IMG/VR virus record: IMGVR_UViG_3300033155_000615
Location: 1-45,174 of that record
Length of the DNA: 45,174 nucleotides
Reading direction: 5' to 3' (one strand)
From: a virus
The first letter of the stretch is position 1. Each line of letters starts with the position of its first letter. Below, one piece after another: positions 5,771-35,912 of this stretch. The notes below the pieces were generated by a model, which saw only the letters and a list, made by a program, of their open reading frames with translations, made no database searches and was not told the DNA's origin. The position numbers and the translations under genes were made by a program.

Positions 5771-5772
5771 CC

Positions 5773-5779
5773 ATAAATA
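5773..5779 (+). promoter_or_regulatory. T4-type late promoter box (ATAAATA)
   Basis: CCATAAATAC lies just after the upstream stop, with the next ATG six bases downstream (5786). There is no room for a ribosome-binding site between an expected start site and the ATG. Confidence 0.6.
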
Positions 5780-5785
5780 CACTAC

Positions 5786-7705
5786 ATGTTAAATAAACAA
5801 CTTGGGTACATAGCCCTATTTTCTGCTCTATTTATTAGTAGCATTGCAATCTATTTTAGTGTCGCTGGACTAGCTGCGATATTCAGCGCGTATGCTATTT
5901 CAATCATTATAATGGGCACATCAATTGAGCTTGGTAAGTTAGTTGCAGTTGTTTGGTTACATTATAATTGGAAAGATCCAAACAAGGTACTGAAGAATGG
6001 ACTATCATTCTTTGTGATAGGCACCATGTTTATCACGTCCATGGGTATCTTTGGATACCTATCAAAGTCACATGTTGAACAGACAGCACAGTCGCAGGAA
6101 AGTGTAGCACAAGTTGGCCGCATTAACTCTGAGATAGCACGTAACAATGCTATCATCGCCCGCTCTGATCAAAAGATTACAAGCTATGAAAATAATGGCA
6201 GTGGTGTAGATGCAAGTCTTAATTCACAAATTGATAAAGAACAAAAGCGTATAGACTCAGCGTACGATAGAGTTAAACCAGTTATCCAAGTCCAGATAGA
6301 TATCATTGCTACAGATGAAACGAAAACAGCCAGTCGGAGTAAACCTTATACGTCTGAACTTGATGGGATTAACAAACAACTAGGAGACTTACAGGCAGCA
6401 CTCAGTGACAGGAAGATTAAGATAGCCCAGGGCATAGTTGGCACAAGGCCAGATGGTTCGTACAGAGAAAAGACCCAAGCAGCTATCAGAGATTTTCGTA
6501 CACGTAAAGAAACAAGACGCAACGAGCTACTACAGAAAATTGATAGCATTAGAGGAGTTCCTTCAGTAGCGGTAAAAGCAGCACAGCAAGAAATTAATCG
6601 CATACGCGCTTCTGTACAATCAGAGATTGACGAAAGTAATGCAACTATTAAAAGTTTACGGTCGCGTATGGGCAAGTCAAATGCTAACGATATTGAAACG
6701 TTAATTACAGTTGAGCGAGATAAGTCTAAGGTAGCAAACAATGAACTTGATACATTAACACAAGAGAAATATAAACTTGAAGCAAGTACTCGCAAGTTGG
6801 AAGCAGAGGTTGGCCCTATTAAATACATTGCAGAATTTGCATACGGTAGAAAAGCAGATGCTGACCTACTTGAGAAAGCAGTTCAGTGGCTTATCATTAT
6901 TATTATATTTGTGTTTGATCCGTTTGCTATATTCTTACTAATAGCAGCACAACACTCATTCGACAGGCACCGCGAAGAGAATCCAGTTCGTAAGAAGAGG
7001 GTACTTGGCAATCCAACGCCCGCTGAAGATGCAGCACCAAGAGAGTACGTTGAGCAACAATGGACAACAAACGATGAAGGTGTTGACAGACCTTTCTCAG
7101 CAGCCTTACGGGACCATGGAGGCTATCAACCCACACACGGTGAGTTAGATGATAACGACCCACCGCAGGAAGATGGTGATAGTGTTATACTCGACGAACT
7201 TGAATTTGAGGACGTTGCTGAAGGTATTGAAGAGTTTGATCTCGAAACCCAAACTGAAGAACCATGGAAAGACCTTAACGAGTTAAGTCAGATTGCAAAA
7301 GATATGAACCTTCCACCATATAGCGGCGCAGGCAAAATTGCAATGGCGAAGGTTGGCGAAGACTACATTAACTTTAACGGGAAGGTATATAGAACAGAAG
7401 CACTAACTCAAATGTTTCCAGGCTTAGGTTTTAATTTTAATAAAACGGTTAAATCAGGAACAGAGTTCCCGCCACCTAATAGAGTTGGCATGATGTTCAT
7501 ACGTACTGATTTAGAACCAACGCAGTTGTATATTTTTAATGGCAACGATTGGGACAAAATTGATAAGAATATTTTAAACTTTGGCGCTTATAGTCACGAA
7601 TACACCAAAGCGTTAATTAAAAGGGTCGGCAATGGCGAGTATAATCCAGAGCTATTGAATGAAGCGGAGAAGAAGCATATCGAAGAACTGCTAAGTCGTG
7701 AGTAA
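5786..7705 (+). CDS. membrane protein with long coiled coil
   Basis: A 639-residue protein with three hydrophobic segments at about residues 7-27, 29-50 and 77-97, a long charged helical region at about 105-345 with heptad-like Glu/Lys/Arg/Gln content, and a fourth hydrophobic segment at about 368-392 (LIIIIIFVFDPFAIFLLIAA). An acidic cytosolic or periplasmic tail follows, ending in a globular region with an FNGxxWD-type turn near 595. No enzymatic motif is visible. A late box lies six bases upstream, so it is probably made late and could act in the host membrane or, less likely, be part of the particle. I know of no function for this architecture. Confidence 0.7.
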   Translation: MLNKQLGYIALFSALFISSIAIYFSVAGLAAIFSAYAISIIIMGTSIELGKLVAVVWLHYNWKDPNKVLKNGLSFFVIGTMFITSMGIFGYLSKSHVEQTAQSQESVAQVGRINSEIARNNAIIARSDQKITSYENNGSGVDASLNSQIDKEQKRIDSAYDRVKPVIQVQIDIIATDETKTASRSKPYTSELDGINKQLGDLQAALSDRKIKIAQGIVGTRPDGSYREKTQAAIRDFRTRKETRRNELLQKIDSIRGVPSVAVKAAQQEINRIRASVQSEIDESNATIKSLRSRMGKSNANDIETLITVERDKSKVANNELDTLTQEKYKLEASTRKLEAEVGPIKYIAEFAYGRKADADLLEKAVQWLIIIIIFVFDPFAIFLLIAAQHSFDRHREENPVRKKRVLGNPTPAEDAAPREYVEQQWTTNDEGVDRPFSAALRDHGGYQPTHGELDDNDPPQEDGDSVILDELEFEDVAEGIEEFDLETQTEEPWKDLNELSQIAKDMNLPPYSGAGKIAMAKVGEDYINFNGKVYRTEALTQMFPGLGFNFNKTVKSGTEFPPPNRVGMMFIRTDLEPTQLYIFNGNDWDKIDKNILNFGAYSHEYTKALIKRVGNGEYNPELLNEAEKKHIEELLSRE

Positions 7706-7717
7706 AGAGGTAGTACA

Positions 7718-8815
7718 ATGACTGAGACTTGTAATTTTTGTAACAAAGGACAACACCAGGTTAAGAAGTTGGTATTAGGTGAGACCGCAGGTATATGTGA
7801 TGTGTGCATTAAATTATGCGCCAAGATACTCAATAGCGAAGATATTGATGATACTGAAGAATTAGAAAAGCTCGACGATATCAATCCGATGGAATTGAAA
7901 GATTATCTAGACATGTATGTAACAAGTCAAGATTCTGCGAAGATTGTACTAAGTGTAGCAGTTGCAAATCATGTTAAACGTCTTAATTCAAAGGACACGA
8001 TTTTAGATAAGAGTAATGTAATGTTGCTAGGACCTACAGGATCTGGTAAGACGTTACTTGCAAAAACAATAGCAGGATACTTAGACGTACCTTTTGTAAT
8101 AGCAGATGCAACCACATTAACTGAATCAGGTTATGTAGGTGAAGATGTCGATTCGATATTAATTAAGCTGTTAAATGCAGCAGGTGGTAATGTTGCTGAA
8201 GCCGAGCGCGGTATTATCTTTATTGATGAAATCGACAAGATTGCTAAGAAGGGCCAGTCTGGAGTTAATGGTAAGGAACCAGGCGGCGAAGGTGTACAGC
8301 AAGCACTCTTAAAATTAGTCGAAGGTACAGTGTTTACAGTTGAAACAAGCCGCAGAGAAGAAACCACAGAAGAAATTGATACAAGTAATATATTGTTTAT
8401 CGCTAGTGGTGCATTTGTAGGGTTGGATAAGATTAAAAAGAGAAAGCAGCAACCAAGTCAAATTGGGTTTACTGCTGATGTAGATAACAGGTACATCAAA
8501 GATGCAGAATTTACTGACCTTATTGAGTTTGGTTTAATTCCTGAGTTTGTTAGCAGATTCCCTGTTATTGCAGAAGTACAAGAGTTAACACAAGATGATA
8601 TGCTTAGTGTGTTAATGGAAGTAGAAAATAATTTAAGGCAAGTTGTAAATATTGCTATTGGCAAGAAGACAGGAGCTCGTAGCCTACGCTCAATAATGGA
8701 GAAGGCTTTATTGCCACACATGTTTAATATTAATCAGTACACGTCAGATAACATAAATAAGGTGAGGATTACAAAGTCATTAGTTAATCACCCAACAGAG
8801 GTAAAGAAGAAATAA
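7718..8815 (+). CDS. clpX: ClpX, AAA+ unfoldase of the Clp protease
   Basis: A 365-residue ClpX (E. coli, 424). The N-terminal zinc-binding domain has C5, C8, C27 and C30 with normal spacing. The AAA+ module has Walker A GPTGSGKT (105-112), pore-1 loop GYVG (138-141), Walker B IIFIDEID (166-173), arginine finger R280 and sensor-2 R321 in KTGARSLRS. The ClpP-docking IGF tripeptide is at 249-251, so it should dock a ClpP ring; this phage has its own clpP at 35328. Compared with E. coli ClpX from memory, the RKH loop that binds ssrA-type tags is replaced by SRRE near 211-214, and about 20-25 residues of the small AAA+ subdomain before KTGAR are missing. It unfolds substrates with ATP in the cytoplasm. 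AGAGG seven bases upstream fixes the start. The bS21 gene follows without a gap. Confidence 0.93.
   Translation: MTETCNFCNKGQHQVKKLVLGETAGICDVCIKLCAKILNSEDIDDTEELEKLDDINPMELKDYLDMYVTSQDSAKIVLSVAVANHVKRLNSKDTILDKSNVMLLGPTGSGKTLLAKTIAGYLDVPFVIADATTLTESGYVGEDVDSILIKLLNAAGGNVAEAERGIIFIDEIDKIAKKGQSGVNGKEPGGEGVQQALLKLVEGTVFTVETSRREETTEEIDTSNILFIASGAFVGLDKIKKRKQQPSQIGFTADVDNRYIKDAEFTDLIEFGLIPEFVSRFPVIAEVQELTQDDMLSVLMEVENNLRQVVNIAIGKKTGARSLRSIMEKALLPHMFNINQYTSDNINKVRITKSLVNHPTEVKKK
8753..8759 (+). promoter_or_regulatory. possible late promoter box inside the end of clpX
   Basis: ACATAAATAA lies in the last codons of clpX, 56 bases before the bS21 gene. It could drive bS21 late, but the match lies in coding AT-rich sequence and may be chance. 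Confidence 0.25.
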
Positions 8816-9028
8816 ATGCCATCAGTAAGAGTATATCAGGGCCAGTTTGATAAAGCCCTGCGAAAATTTAAGAAACAAGTATCCAACGCAGGCACCCTAG
8901 AAGAAGTCCGCAGGCGCCAGCATTACGAAAAGCCATCATCAAAGCGTCAACGCATGGCAGGCGCAGCTAAAGCACGTCATCGTAAAAAACTCCGCGAAGA
9001 AGATATCCACCGCCCACGTAAATATTGA
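8816..9028 (+). CDS. rpsU: ribosomal protein bS21 homologue
   Basis: A 70-residue, strongly basic protein that matches bS21 along its whole length: an N-terminal strand with VRVYQGQFDKALRKFKK, the EVRRRQHYEKPSSKRQR centre corresponding to bacterial EVRRREFYEKPTTERKR, and an Arg/Lys-rich helical end with RHRKKLREE and a final Arg-Lys-Tyr. bS21 is a small-subunit protein near the anti-Shine-Dalgarno region of 16S rRNA and helps initiation. bS21 is among the ribosomal proteins known from phages, including a marine pelagiphage. The phage copy could replace the host protein and bias ribosomes to phage mRNA (inference). It starts directly after the clpX stop (TAAATG). Confidence 0.93.
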   Translation: MPSVRVYQGQFDKALRKFKKQVSNAGTLEEVRRRQHYEKPSSKRQRMAGAAKARHRKKLREEDIHRPRKY

Positions 9029-9151: not shown

Positions 9152-9601
9152 ATGCAAAACAAACACCTCACCACTATAAATCTAGAACCATTCTTGCGTA
9201 ACGCAATTGGCGTTCGTGAATTTATGAACACAATGCAATCCCGCATTGAACACACAAATAACGGAAATTATCCTCCGTACAACGTTATTGCAATAGACGA
9301 CAATCATTACCGTATTGAAATTGCAATCGCAGGCTTTGACAAAGAAGAAATAAGCGTAGTAGTTGAGAATGCCCAGCTTAGTATTTGCGGGTTCCAGGAA
9401 ACTATTACCGATGTAGGCGAAGAAATACCAAATCCAACTTATTTGCATCAAGGTATTAGTGCTCGTTCATTCGAGCGTAATTTTGCGTTAGCAGACCACG
9501 TCGAAGTAACTGGTGCAACCGTAAACAGCGGTATACTTAAAGTTGAACTAGAACGTAATGTTCCGGAAAGTTTAAAGCCGAAAACAATAAAAGTTAAGTA
9601 A
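9152..9601 (+). CDS. hsp20: small heat-shock protein, Hsp20/IbpA family
   Basis: A 149-residue alpha-crystallin chaperone. The YPPYNVI start of the domain, the HYRIEIAIAGFDKEEI strand pair, ISARSFERNFALADHVEV, and the closing GILKVELER strand are all standard IbpA-type sequence; a hydrophobic C-terminal tail follows. It holds unfolding proteins in the cytoplasm for later refolding. Hsp20 is frequent in marine T4-like phages, where it may protect or assemble virion proteins. The leader carries a host-type promoter, a late box and a ROSE-like stem that would mask AAGGAG (9138-9143). It lies beside clpX, bS21 and clpS, forming a protein-homeostasis cluster. Confidence 0.93.
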   Translation: MQNKHLTTINLEPFLRNAIGVREFMNTMQSRIEHTNNGNYPPYNVIAIDDNHYRIEIAIAGFDKEEISVVVENAQLSICGFQETITDVGEEIPNPTYLHQGISARSFERNFALADHVEVTGATVNSGILKVELERNVPESLKPKTIKVK

Positions 9602-9652: not shown

Positions 9653-9674
9653 TACTTATATGAAGGATAAAAAC

Positions 9675-9980
9675 ATGTCAACAAAAACAGAAGTCGCAGT
9701 TAAAACAAGATTAGATCTTAAAGAACCACCTATGTTTAAGGTAGTTTATGTTAATGATAATAAGACCAGTATGCAGTTCGTTATTGATAGTCTTGTTGAA
9801 CACTTCAGCTTTGCAATAGATACCGCCGAGAGAATAGCAAACACTGTACACACAGATGGCGCGGCAGTTGCAGCGATTTTACCGTTTGAAGTAGCTGAGC
9901 AGAAGGGCATTGAAGTTACAGTAGATGCACGTAAGCAGGGCTACCCACTACAAATTCGTATTGAAAAAGAAAAAGACTAA
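9675..9980 (+). CDS. clpS: ClpS, N-degron adaptor of the Clp protease
   Basis: A 101-residue ClpS. The core MFKVVYVNDNKTSMQFVIDSL corresponds to E. coli [21 protein letters not shown], with the Asn-Asp that hold the alpha-amino group of the substrate; the pocket His is in TVHTDGAA, and a FEVAEQKG segment and a hydrophobic last strand follow. One pocket-side Asp of the E. coli NDD is Asn here. ClpS delivers proteins with bulky N-terminal residues to Clp unfoldases, classically ClpA rather than ClpX. I prefer the ATG at 9675, six bases after GAAGGAT, over the upstream one at 9660, which would place the ribosome site inside the gene. It ends four bases inside the convergent neighbour. Confidence 0.9.
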   Translation: MSTKTEVAVKTRLDLKEPPMFKVVYVNDNKTSMQFVIDSLVEHFSFAIDTAERIANTVHTDGAAVAAILPFEVAEQKGIEVTVDARKQGYPLQIRIEKEKD

Positions 9981-22337: not shown

Positions 22338-22691
22338 ATGTCAGACGAAAAAGAGAAAAAGGCTGTAGTTAAAAAGAAAGCGGCAGCCAAGAAGAAAGCA
22401 GTAGCTAAGAAAAAATCTACTGTTAAGAAAAAAGTAGCAAAGAAAGCAGCACCTGCTAAAAAAGCAGTAGCTAAAAAGAAAGCAGTAGCTAAAAAGAAAG
22501 CAGTTGCTAAGAAAGCAGCACCTAGGCCTTTAAACTTGTTGCCACCTGTGGTAGAGACTGCTGAACCTGCTCCAGTAGCAAAGAAATCAAGCAACAAAAG
22601 AAATGGTTTGATTGTTGTAGCAGTGGCAATTGCTGGTGCAATAGCTTACGAACAGGGCGTGTTTGCTGAATTAATTAAATTAGTCCAATAA
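22338..22691 (+). CDS. Lys/Ala-rich H1-like protein with C-terminal membrane segment
   Basis: A 117-residue protein of unusual composition. Residues 7-60 are a run of KKAVAKKK-type units like the tail of histone H1 or bacterial AlgP/HctB proteins. A short Pro-rich linker (62-80) follows, then one hydrophobic segment at about 90-104 and an amphipathic end. Such a basic tail can bind DNA or the acidic inner face of membranes. The combination with a membrane anchor could tether DNA to the envelope, or the protein could act in lysis. AAAGGAGA lies seven bases before the ATG. Its end overlaps the convergent gene by 12 bases. Confidence 0.7.
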   Translation: MSDEKEKKAVVKKKAAAKKKAVAKKKSTVKKKVAKKAAPAKKAVAKKKAVAKKKAVAKKAAPRPLNLLPPVVETAEPAPVAKKSSNKRNGLIVVAVAIAGAIAYEQGVFAELIKLVQ

Positions 22692-23960: not shown

Positions 23961-23983
23961 AGTACTACTTATTGGAGGATTTA

Positions 23984-25222
23984 GTGAGAGAAGAAAAAAT
24001 AGGGTTTATTGGACTTGGGAAGTTAGGGATGGATTGTGCCGAAGTATTTGCAGAGCACTACAATACATGCGGTTATGATATAGCGCCAGTGGAATCAGAT
24101 CTAGTAGATGTTAAGGATAGTATCAAAGACGTTCTAGATAATAGTGATTGGATTTTTATTGCAGTTCCTACTCCGCACGATAAGGCGTACGGTGGCGAAA
24201 TTCCATCTTGCCATTTAGAACCAAGAGATTTTGATTACAGCATTGTAAAAAATGTACTAACAGAAATTAATAAACATGCAACGCCAGACAAGAACATTGT
24301 GCTAATCAGCACAGTACTGCCAGGCACGACACGCCGCGAGTTTGATCCACTCTTAGACAATTGTACATTAATTTATAACCCGTACTTAATTGCAATGGGT
24401 TCCACTAAGTGGGATATGGTTAATCCTGAAATGATAATAATTGGTAGCGAGGACGGCGGCGATCCTCGGGTAGATGAGTTAGTTAAAATTTATGGTAGAC
24501 TGAACATGCGAAATAAAACCCGTGTAGAAATTGGCACATGGGAAGAAGCAGAAGGTATTAAGATTTTCTACAATACATACATCAGCGCAAAGATTGGCAT
24601 CGTTAATATGATACAAGACTTTGCAATGAAGATAGGACACATGAATTCAGACGTTGTTGCAGGCGCATTAGCACGTAGCACGATGCGATTGCAAAGTCCA
24701 CAGTACATGGTACCCGGCATGGGTGACTCAGGTGCTTGCCACCCACGTGACAACATTGCACTTCGTTGGTTAGCACAAGAGTATGAAATTGGTTATGACA
24801 TGTTTCAAACTATCATGGGCGCACGTGAAGTACAAGCAGAGAACCTAGCTAAGTTCTTAATCGAACAGGCCACCGAACATAAACTTCCTATTGTAATACA
24901 CGGCAAGGCATACAAACCAGGTGTGCCGTACTTAGATGGTAGTTACAGCACACTCGTTGGTCACTACATTCAGAACCTTAGCGATTATGAATTGTTGTAT
25001 GCTGATCCATTAACAGGTGATGAAATACCACCAACAAAGGCAGTTGTTCTTTGGGCGCATAACAAGAGTATTACTTACGGATATACTGATCTAGATACGC
25101 AGGAAGAACCTGCTTACTTTGAGATGTTGCCAGGTTGCGTTATAGTTGACCCGTGGCGCATGATAAACAAAGAAAACGACATGTACAAGATTGTACATTA
25201 CGGCGATACGCGCGGTGTCTGA
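23984..25222 (+). CDS. UDP-glucose/GDP-mannose dehydrogenase family enzyme
   Basis: A 412-residue NAD-dependent nucleotide-sugar dehydrogenase. The Rossmann motif IGFIGLGKLGMD (about 5-16) opens the protein. IAVPTPHD near 60-67 and STVLPGTTRR near 110-119 are family motifs. The catalytic Cys is C252 in GDSGACHPRDN, and the C-terminal UDP-binding domain has IHGKAYKPGVPYLDGS near 305-320. The family oxidises a sugar-nucleotide alcohol to the acid in two steps. I start at GTG 23984, six bases after GGAGG; an in-frame TTG upstream lacks a ribosome site. It may supply uronic acid for surface glycans. The next gene overlaps it by eight bases. Confidence 0.88.
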   Translation: MREEKIGFIGLGKLGMDCAEVFAEHYNTCGYDIAPVESDLVDVKDSIKDVLDNSDWIFIAVPTPHDKAYGGEIPSCHLEPRDFDYSIVKNVLTEINKHATPDKNIVLISTVLPGTTRREFDPLLDNCTLIYNPYLIAMGSTKWDMVNPEMIIIGSEDGGDPRVDELVKIYGRLNMRNKTRVEIGTWEEAEGIKIFYNTYISAKIGIVNMIQDFAMKIGHMNSDVVAGALARSTMRLQSPQYMVPGMGDSGACHPRDNIALRWLAQEYEIGYDMFQTIMGAREVQAENLAKFLIEQATEHKLPIVIHGKAYKPGVPYLDGSYSTLVGHYIQNLSDYELLYADPLTGDEIPPTKAVVLWAHNKSITYGYTDLDTQEEPAYFEMLPGCVIVDPWRMINKENDMYKIVHYGDTRGV

Positions 25223-35327: not shown

Positions 35328-35912
35328 ATGACAACATTGGTACCAGTAGTAATAGAAAAGACCCCAAACGGTGAACGCAGTTACGACATTTACAGTCGGT
35401 TGCTTAAAGAACGAATCATTATGCTAAACGGCGTAGTAGATGAGAATAGCTGTAACAGCATTATCGCTCAAATGTTATATTTGGAAAGCGACAACCCAGA
35501 TTCAGAAATCCTATTTTACATCAACAGCCCAGGCGGTTCAGTAACTGACGGCATGGCTGTAATTGATACCATGAACTTCATCAAATGTGATATACGAACT
35601 ATTGTTGCTGGCCAGGCTTGCAGCATGGGGTCATTGTTAGCAGCAAGCGGTACCAAAGGTAAGCGCATGATGTTGAAGCACGGTACACACATGATACACC
35701 AAGTCCTAGCTGGTTACAAAGGTCAGGCGTCCGATTTGGAAATTCACACTAACGAAACATTGCGCTGGAAGAAAGCATTAAACGATGTGTATGTTACTGT
35801 CACCGGTAAGCCGTACACAACAATCGAAAAAGATACAGACCGCGATAATTTTATGACCTCAGAAGAATCTGTAGCATATGGTTTAGCTGACGAGGTTATC
35901 CTTAAGAGATAA
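35328..35912 (+). CDS. clpP: ClpP, serine peptidase of the Clp protease
   Basis: A 194-residue ClpP of normal mature length. The catalytic triad is complete: S99 in GQACSMGSLL, H124 in HMIHQVLAG and D173 in TDRDNF. INSPGGSVTDG (65-75) is the oxyanion-loop motif, and the C-terminal SVAYGLADEVI is standard. ClpP forms a barrel that needs a docked ClpX- or ClpA-type unfoldase, and the phage supplies a clpX with an intact IGF loop at 7718. ClpP without ClpX is common in phages as a prohead-type protease, but presence of all three Clp genes favours regulated proteolysis here. It has its own promoter and AAGAGGA leader. A second promoter follows its stop. Confidence 0.95.
   Translation: MTTLVPVVIEKTPNGERSYDIYSRLLKERIIMLNGVVDENSCNSIIAQMLYLESDNPDSEILFYINSPGGSVTDGMAVIDTMNFIKCDIRTIVAGQACSMGSLLAASGTKGKRMMLKHGTHMIHQVLAGYKGQASDLEIHTNETLRWKKALNDVYVTVTGKPYTTIEKDTDRDNFMTSEESVAYGLADEVILKR

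Follow-up and report, generated by a model that had tools for sequence, protein, structure and literature searches.

What would a phage do with a protein in which a long coiled coil has membrane segments at both ends? This question is raised by the open reading frame (ORF) at positions 5786–7705 of the window, the whole 45,174 bp virus record that was analysed. The window carries glutaredoxin, DNA ligase, ClpX, Hsp20, ClpS, bS21 and ClpP genes together with a gene resembling those of baseplate-wedge/tail-fibre connectors. It reads as a fragment of a tailed phage, which its gene content and late-type boxes suggest to be T4-like. Two further window genes are recorded here for themselves: one at 22338–22691 for a repetitive, very lysine- and alanine-rich protein of 117 residues, which we take to have a histone H1-like look, and a phage gene at 23972–25222 that resembles UDP-glucose dehydrogenase (phrog_9148, E 1.1e-81).

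Membrane segments were called from Kyte–Doolittle hydropathy in 19-residue windows with a threshold of 1.5. The four segments, and the coiled coil of about 240 residues with membrane segments at both ends, that a preliminary description had read from the ORF are both borne out (Table 1); the stretch between TM3 and TM4 (residues 98–342) measures 245 residues. The same procedure gives four segments in 64 of the 65 aligned members of the family, the window protein included, and three in the remaining one. Hydrophobic residues recur with a period of 3.4–3.66 residues in both arms of the coil more strongly than in residue shuffles (p = 0.022 and 0.006; 2000 shuffles). The acidic tail of the same description is present at residues 412–500, where 29 Asp/Glu stand against four Lys/Arg and the most acidic 89-residue window has a net charge of −25 (at most −21 in 1000 shuffles). 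The tail is not purely acidic, however: beyond this stretch residues 520–638 are predicted by AlphaFold to fold into strands and helices.

Table 1. Features of the hairpin-protein locus and its Clp/bS21 neighbourhood in the window.
Feature	Position	Strand	Basis or remark
Late-promoter-like box CATAAATA	5772..5779	+	Begins 14 nt before ATG
639-residue four-TM coiled-coil hairpin protein (predicted)	5786..7705	+	ATG start; segment scan and AlphaFold
TM1, residues 15–33	5828..5884	+	Kyte–Doolittle; conservation
TM2, residues 38–56	5897..5953	+	Kyte–Doolittle; conservation
TM3, residues 72–90	5999..6055	+	Kyte–Doolittle; conservation
Coiled-coil arm 1, residues 97–207	6074..6406	+	AlphaFold and periodicity
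Hairpin tip region, residues 208–227	6407..6466	+	AlphaFold
Coiled-coil arm 2, residues 228–342	6467..6811	+	AlphaFold and periodicity
Conserved GP-x-x-Y segment, base of arm 2, residues 343–353	6812..6844	+	Conservation
TM4, residues 369–387	6890..6946	+	Kyte–Doolittle; conservation
Acidic low-confidence stretch (probably disordered), residues 412–500	7019..7285	+	AlphaFold and composition
C-terminal module, residues 520–639	7343..7702	+	AlphaFold and sequence comparison
ClpX (zinc finger and AAA domain), next gene, 12 nt downstream	7718..8815	+	
Ribosomal protein bS21, abuts ClpX (0 nt gap)	8816..9028	+	
Hsp20	9152..9601	+	
ClpS	9660..9980	+	
ClpP, elsewhere in the window	35328..35912	+	

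Structure prediction, which had been proposed as a check, was carried out with AlphaFold. The model of the window protein (65 sequences; pLDDT 79.1, pTM 0.41) shows the coil as long helices, with pLDDT above 90 in most ten-residue blocks, interrupted by a turn region at residues 208–227 and by short breaks at 258–260 and 296–299 in the second arm. The model of the short relative L089 (58 sequences; pLDDT 88.0, pTM 0.71) consists of helices at residues 2–28, 30–56, 63–136, 139–187, 189–199 and 205–253. In both models the two arms are near-equal in length (97–207 and 228–342 in the window protein, about 92–136 and 139–187 in L089) and thus fit one antiparallel hairpin, which requires such arms. 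Further, the L089 model superposes on the Smc coiled coil (residues 99–183; 72 aligned, r.m.s.d. 1.0, Z 10.2) and on the LipC soluble domain (residues 98–189; 92 aligned, r.m.s.d. 2.4, Z 10.5), both of which we take to be antiparallel hairpins; the superpositions support the predicted hairpin shape, not kinship. The predicted architecture has a single antiparallel coiled-coil hairpin set between three membrane helices on its N-terminal side and a fourth on its C-terminal side. A rise of 0.15 nm per residue predicts a rod of about 16 nm for the window protein and 7 nm for L089. By a motif-based estimate the coil ranges from 79 to 488 residues over 288 members (median 118) and has 250 in the window protein.

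The loop between TM2 and TM3 carries a net positive charge in all 65 aligned members, which under the positive-inside rule places both termini inside, the hairpin in the periplasm and the tail in the cytoplasm; downstream of TM4, just 28 of the 65 have a positive net charge over the next 25 residues, which adds no support to this topology. The hairpin most likely stands in the periplasm as a stiff rod anchored in the inner membrane. Because both ends of the coil would lie in one membrane, the protein would reach outward and would not bridge two membranes alone, and the hairpin tip could be the sole part able to reach the wall or the outer membrane. The earlier suggestion that the protein spans or bridges host membranes is therefore at odds with the predicted topology.

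Relatives were found by tblastn in 13 phage records, namely Pelagibacter phage Mosig, Stenotrophomonas phages CM1 and RAS14, Xanthomonas phage XacN1, Salicola phage SCTP-2, four Flavobacterium immuto records, Microcystis Mel-JY01 and three uncultured phages. Two other members used as tblastn queries returned 13 and 12 of the same records. Alignment scans of IMG/VR confirmed at least 590, at least 581 and at least 596 stretches from 600 candidates each (the three sets overlap); a scan of viral contigs with the single protein gave no relatives, whereas the alignment query did. The scan of bacterial and archaeal genomes gave 50 loci, many of them on short MAG contigs that may be phage, and loci were counted as cellular where the neighbours look bacterial in our reading or where they lie on long chromosomes. 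Chromosomal copies, which occur notably in Bdellovibrionota, include one on a 3.3 Mb contig of Bdellovibrio sp. qaytius and one on a 2.0 Mb contig of Polynucleobacter alcilacus. A profile made mostly of Bdellovibrionota members matched 11 of 191 genomes in the phylum of B. qaytius, three of 299 in that of Polynucleobacter and one of 199 in that of a Phycisphaera MAG, while the Polynucleobacter protein as query matched two of 61 genomes of its own genus and the qaytius protein alone matched nine of 144. These tallies are low, with the starting genome counted in each, and indicate a patchy distribution in bacteria.

Phage and genome rows are interleaved in a tree of 107 representatives (selected with a greedy 60% identity filter; quick tree method). 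One set of eight rows comprises seven Bdellovibrionota and one Myxococcota-labelled MAG, and in this quick tree a Halobacteriovorax MAG (L269) sits apart, among phage rows. The Planctomycetota and Verrucomicrobiota copies (L275, L264, L288 and L291) are 883–1107 residues long with a long region after TM4, in which Pfam gave no domain in the two copies scanned. No paper describing the family was found in the literature searched. To judge from sequence comparison, the hairpin family is common to many environmental phages and some bacteria and has neither a name nor a library model. We have little doubt about the membership of the family and its anatomy as drawn from conservation and prediction.

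Among Pfam, PHROG and NCBIfam models, none gives convincing coverage of the core. Matches of the window protein to ANIS5, CENPH and ApoO are weak and lie on the coil, and a weak match of a holin profile to residues 19–110 was discarded. Tetraspanin (PF00335) was likewise rejected; its matches cover the N-terminal membrane part and reach 23.9 bits at best against a cut-off of 32.1 (in a separate scan, two of nine members with a best E of 6.7e-4). Lone members match Rz-like spanins, hemolysin, tape measure and other models in the tallies of weak matches, and three of 65 match phrog_77 (SbcC-like; best E 2.7e-8), all of which we provisionally take as coil similarity. The best match in the PDB sequence search, 8qox (E 1e-5), aligns the coil and ends before the DP motif, and was set aside; the best match with the 65-member alignment (E 0.0029) is also on the coil. 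Foldseek gave no PDB match at E ≤ 0.001 for the model of the window protein or of L089. The best VIA matches (Z 11.9 with 303 aligned and r.m.s.d. 11.3; Z 10.9 with 167 aligned and r.m.s.d. 9.6), as well as those of the fold searches, are long-helix proteins of many kinds, probably lookalikes. The best five BFVD matches (E 3.3e-19 to 9.9e-6) are uncharacterised or unnamed phage proteins and probably belong to the family. The bacterial DUF4407 (PF14362) may have the same order of three TM segments, coil and TM segment, to judge by eye from one DUF4407 sequence. It is matched by one of 18 members scanned (L068; residues 102–245, E 7.2e-5, 22.7 bits, below the cut-off of 31.3), and profile–profile comparison gives a probability of 12 over 27 columns. 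Homology is not claimed, as the hhalign P value of 0.0024 covers just these 27 columns.

In the L089 alignment the mean column identity is 0.31–0.33 in the arms versus 0.52–0.67 in the TM segments and the GP-x-x-Y segment. Two residues of TM2 stand out, Glu48 in 290 of 291 members (the exception, L010, has Gly) and Lys51 in all 291; both lie outside the patterns used to fetch loci, so that their conservation is free of such bias. Ser25, Gly28 and Phe33 of TM1 are each present in 289 of 291 members, and Thr84, Ser85, Gly87 and Gly90 of TM3 and Asp378, Pro379 and Ala381 of TM4 in all 291, an invariance that is partly built in because the fetching patterns included TSxG-x-[FY]G, VGP, S-x-x-G-x-x-x-LF and DP-x-A, and a DP motif served as the cutting point for members. 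Over 58 diverse rows, L089 residues Glu44, Lys47, Thr80, Ser81, Gly83, Gly86, Asp225, Pro226 and Ala228 are invariant; these correspond to Glu48, Lys51, Thr84, Ser85, Gly87, Gly90, Asp378, Pro379 and Ala381 of the window protein. Nine members found by tblastn, with no motif pattern, share these nine window residues as well as Ser25, Gly28, Phe33, Gly343 and Pro344. The contrast between a conserved core and variable arms suggests that the functional site is probably the membrane core, with the coil acting as a spacer or lever.

The preliminary description placed the ORF behind a late box with no leader. This stands as a sequence pattern, with CATAAATA ahead of the ATG and none of six Shine–Dalgarno-like strings in the 20 nt upstream, but not as a statement about the transcript. 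The absence of a Shine–Dalgarno-like string is not special, since 26 of 51 listed window genes lack one in the same test. Exact TATAAATA is not enriched in the window (five occurrences versus 4.8 expected), and CATAAATAC occurs three times versus 1.05 expected, a number reached in eight of 100 shuffles. NATAAATA lies at most 60 nt upstream of nine of 52 plus-strand genes (at least 80 residues, our own gene calls) versus 0.33 from gene interiors, and 9–14 nt before the start of four window ORFs. Across the family, a late box is found within 60 nt upstream at 21 of 86 loci (L001–L008 and most of L010–L089, a count without a control set), at 10–14 nt in 11 of these. It is the box, by itself, that supports a putative late expression of the ORF.

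Two gene linkages of the family exceed those of random genes, with lysis genes upstream and ClpX/ClpP downstream; the window has the latter only. The lysis set comprised glucosaminidase, Hydrolase_2/SleB type, holin 4_1, putative chitinase and GH108, the last two being labels from record annotation. A member of this set occupies position −1 at 46 of 293 loci and none of 1282 positions from +1 to +5; one member each was checked for three gene types at −1, glucosaminidase (Pfam), Hydrolase_2 and holin 4_1 (Pfam). Among the 107 representatives a lysis gene lies at −1 in seven versus 1.57 for random genes (1000 draws, largest 6) and within −3 in 12 versus 4.4 (largest draw 11), an enrichment that is partly circular because the seed families were picked after being seen near the gene, and optimistic in that the loci are centred on the gene and the lysis and Clp sets were both chosen after looking. 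At a distance of up to five genes, a lysis gene is present in just 78 of 299 loci, and at up to six in just 18 of the 107 representatives; in the window none is recognised up to five genes from the ORF. In phage XacN1 the family gene lies among replication genes, and in phage SCTP-2 it adjoins topoisomerase and ClpX genes. Among the 50 genome loci, six that look like phage contigs have a lysis gene no more than five genes away; the seed profiles found none within that distance at the Bdellovibrionota, Planctomycetota, Verrucomicrobiota and Polynucleobacter loci. A dedicated lysis role can therefore not hold for the whole family. Of 262 plus-strand neighbours at −1, 12 were called as lipobox genes, and 11 of these belong to one cluster; none was called in the window, and the enrichment of a lipoprotein partner, of the kind that the o-spanin is to an i-spanin, is confined to one lineage. 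CsgG, a candidate neighbour suggested by a passage in PMC9004378, was found in eight of 40 records searched, about 5–8 kb away in the four for which the distance was worked out.

Downstream of the hairpin gene the window order is ClpX, bS21, Hsp20 and ClpS. At least one of ClpX, ClpP, ClpS, S21 and Hsp20 is present at +1 to +7 in 97 of 299 loci and 32 of 107 representatives. ClpX or ClpP lies at +1 to +3 in 21 of the 107 versus 5.9 for random genes of the same loci (500 draws, largest 11), or in 19 by a stricter count that omits L264 and L288, where the gene has in our reading a MoxR-type AAA ATPase look; the test is not blind, its gene set having come from the window. This link is as strong as the lysis link, or stronger. 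In 900 phages with bS21, the neighbours include Hsp20 (127), two Clp proteases (50 and 47) and lysozyme (29), and the passages of PMC9723584 on this neighbourhood make no mention of a membrane hairpin protein. Two clusters from relatives are recorded here. A 133-residue protein (L018 7705–8106) directly follows the hairpin gene in 40 of 41 occurrences, is absent from the window and has no Pfam, PHROG or NCBIfam match in the one member scanned; a phage IF3 (L023 8677–9210; Pfam, one member) lies near ClpX, S21, Hsp20 and ClpS in some relatives.

We propose that the ORF encodes a late, non-virion envelope protein that serves as an accessory of lysis, a reading to which we assign a probability of roughly one in three. 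The late box, the predicted envelope topology and the lysis genes upstream in several lineages favour a late envelope role, and the gene context, with lysis genes upstream in some lineages other than that of the window and Clp genes downstream, points to these processes rather than to assembly. The protein would act in the inner membrane through its conserved Glu/Lys/Thr-Ser/Asp-Pro core, the hairpin tip would extend to the cell wall or to a partner in the outer membrane, and the protein would contribute to weakening or opening the envelope as infection ends, beside the phage wall hydrolase and holin. As the gene is packed with ClpX and S21 in the window, phage proteolysis may set the timing there. 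The Clp link and the bacterial copies nevertheless keep two rivals alive.

The first rival is that the protein is a membrane platform of the phage Clp system, its acidic cytoplasmic tail recruiting ClpX/ClpP, or a membrane sensor controlling them, by analogy with HflKC, which controls FtsH at the membrane. We consider this possible, although well short of probable. Besides the excess of ClpX/ClpP at +1 to +3, the order protein–ClpX–S21–ClpS is kept in the distant phage SCTP-2, the spacing in the window is tight, at 12 nt from the gene to ClpX and 0 nt from ClpX to S21, and five representatives on the other main tree branch have ClpP within +1 to +3. However, ClpP alone (5 versus 1.76, largest draw 7) is not beyond chance, and at +1 to +7 the five cassette genes are all absent from 202 of 299 loci, with many contigs ending earlier. 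Tails of 23 to 618 residues in the 65-member alignment make a common docking segment unlikely, and S21–Hsp20–Clp clusters form a late-gene neighbourhood in their own right, as described in PMC9723584.

The second rival, which we regard as doubtful, is that the protein excludes superinfecting phages or otherwise blocks the entry of DNA at the inner membrane, or else is a general envelope-stress protein of bacterial origin. Recurring neighbours of the bacterial copies argue for a use outside lysis: in nine loci (eight with Bdellovibrionota-type labels and one from another bacterium) the next gene belongs to one unassigned, membrane-protein-like cluster, and in four of these bacterial neighbourhoods the preceding gene is presumably cyclophilin-like. 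A gate or sensor would be in keeping with the charged and polar residues conserved in the membrane segments. One of the 65 aligned members matches phrog_4980 (superinfection exclusion; E 1.8e-4), but this single match stands among scattered ones, and exclusion would call for expression earlier than a late promoter gives. A separate observation concerns Polynucleobacter, where the next gene after the hairpin gene encodes a secreted-looking protein (L266 7044–8087) with an SPGG motif, which we take to be like that of ClpP-class proteases; this protein has a weak ClpP profile score and no Pfam or NCBIfam match.

The preliminary description had called the layout unlike known structural proteins, which applies to the core and its lack of convincing matches but less well to the C-terminal module, in view of its weak likeness to phrog_11591 (virion structural protein). 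The last ~80 residues of this module are common to 16 of 85 member tails (four members were without the motif used for cutting the tail). The phrog_11591 match of the window protein (E 3.6e-4) pairs residues 552–608 with 412–470 of the 497 profile positions and so falls short of the whole profile; at E ≤ 0.001 the profile is matched by ten of 65 members, a minority and in this module only. Stretches of tail-fibre and virion proteins of other phages are also similar (best E about 1e-3; the search gave 33 records at E up to 1). In one relative the module is a separate ORF past the stop of the hairpin gene and in another frame (L042 7346–7564), either a split gene or a sequencing error. That the module anchors an assembling virion at the inner membrane is improbable, in spite of these resemblances, because they are weak and short, the module is present in so few tails and the relatives on bacterial chromosomes, as far as seen, presumably have no virion to assemble.

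The family is conserved in many large environmental phages, has bacterial copies and falls outside the copies of Pfam, PHROG and NCBIfam that were searched. The function can be tested directly thanks to the conserved membrane residues and to carriers in culture (Flavobacterium, Pelagibacter and Stenotrophomonas phages), and a known function would name a recurrent 'hypothetical protein' beside lysis, Clp and bS21 genes. A double-anchored periplasmic hairpin machine, in which the charged and polar core drives or gates the hairpin, would be a third kind of phage envelope disruptor, timed by Clp; we rate this as unlikely. If true, a machine common to phages and bacterial chromosomes would stand beside the two-component and one-component spanins.

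Phage lysis proteins of the inner membrane with a coiled coil are already a known kind. Two-component i-spanins (lambda Rz and T4 PseT.3) are also inner-membrane proteins, with a periplasmic coiled coil in Rz, and share a lysis-gene neighbourhood with some lineages of the hairpin family. Lambda Rz has an N-in, C-out topology with one N-terminal TM segment, and more than 120 i-spanins have no predicted coiled coil, according to passages of PMC6139136. The hairpin family resembles the i-spanins in its periplasmic coiled coil, as predicted, but differs from Rz in having four TM segments (in 64 of 65 members) instead of one, both ends inside and a coil anchored at both ends, and from i-spanins in having relatives on bacterial chromosomes as well. 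Phage_holin_4_1, like the hairpin family, has several TM segments and lies near endolysin genes; the two differ in that some Bacteroidota-type phages carry a separate holin-like gene just upstream of the hairpin gene (one representative identified by Pfam and the rest by profile).
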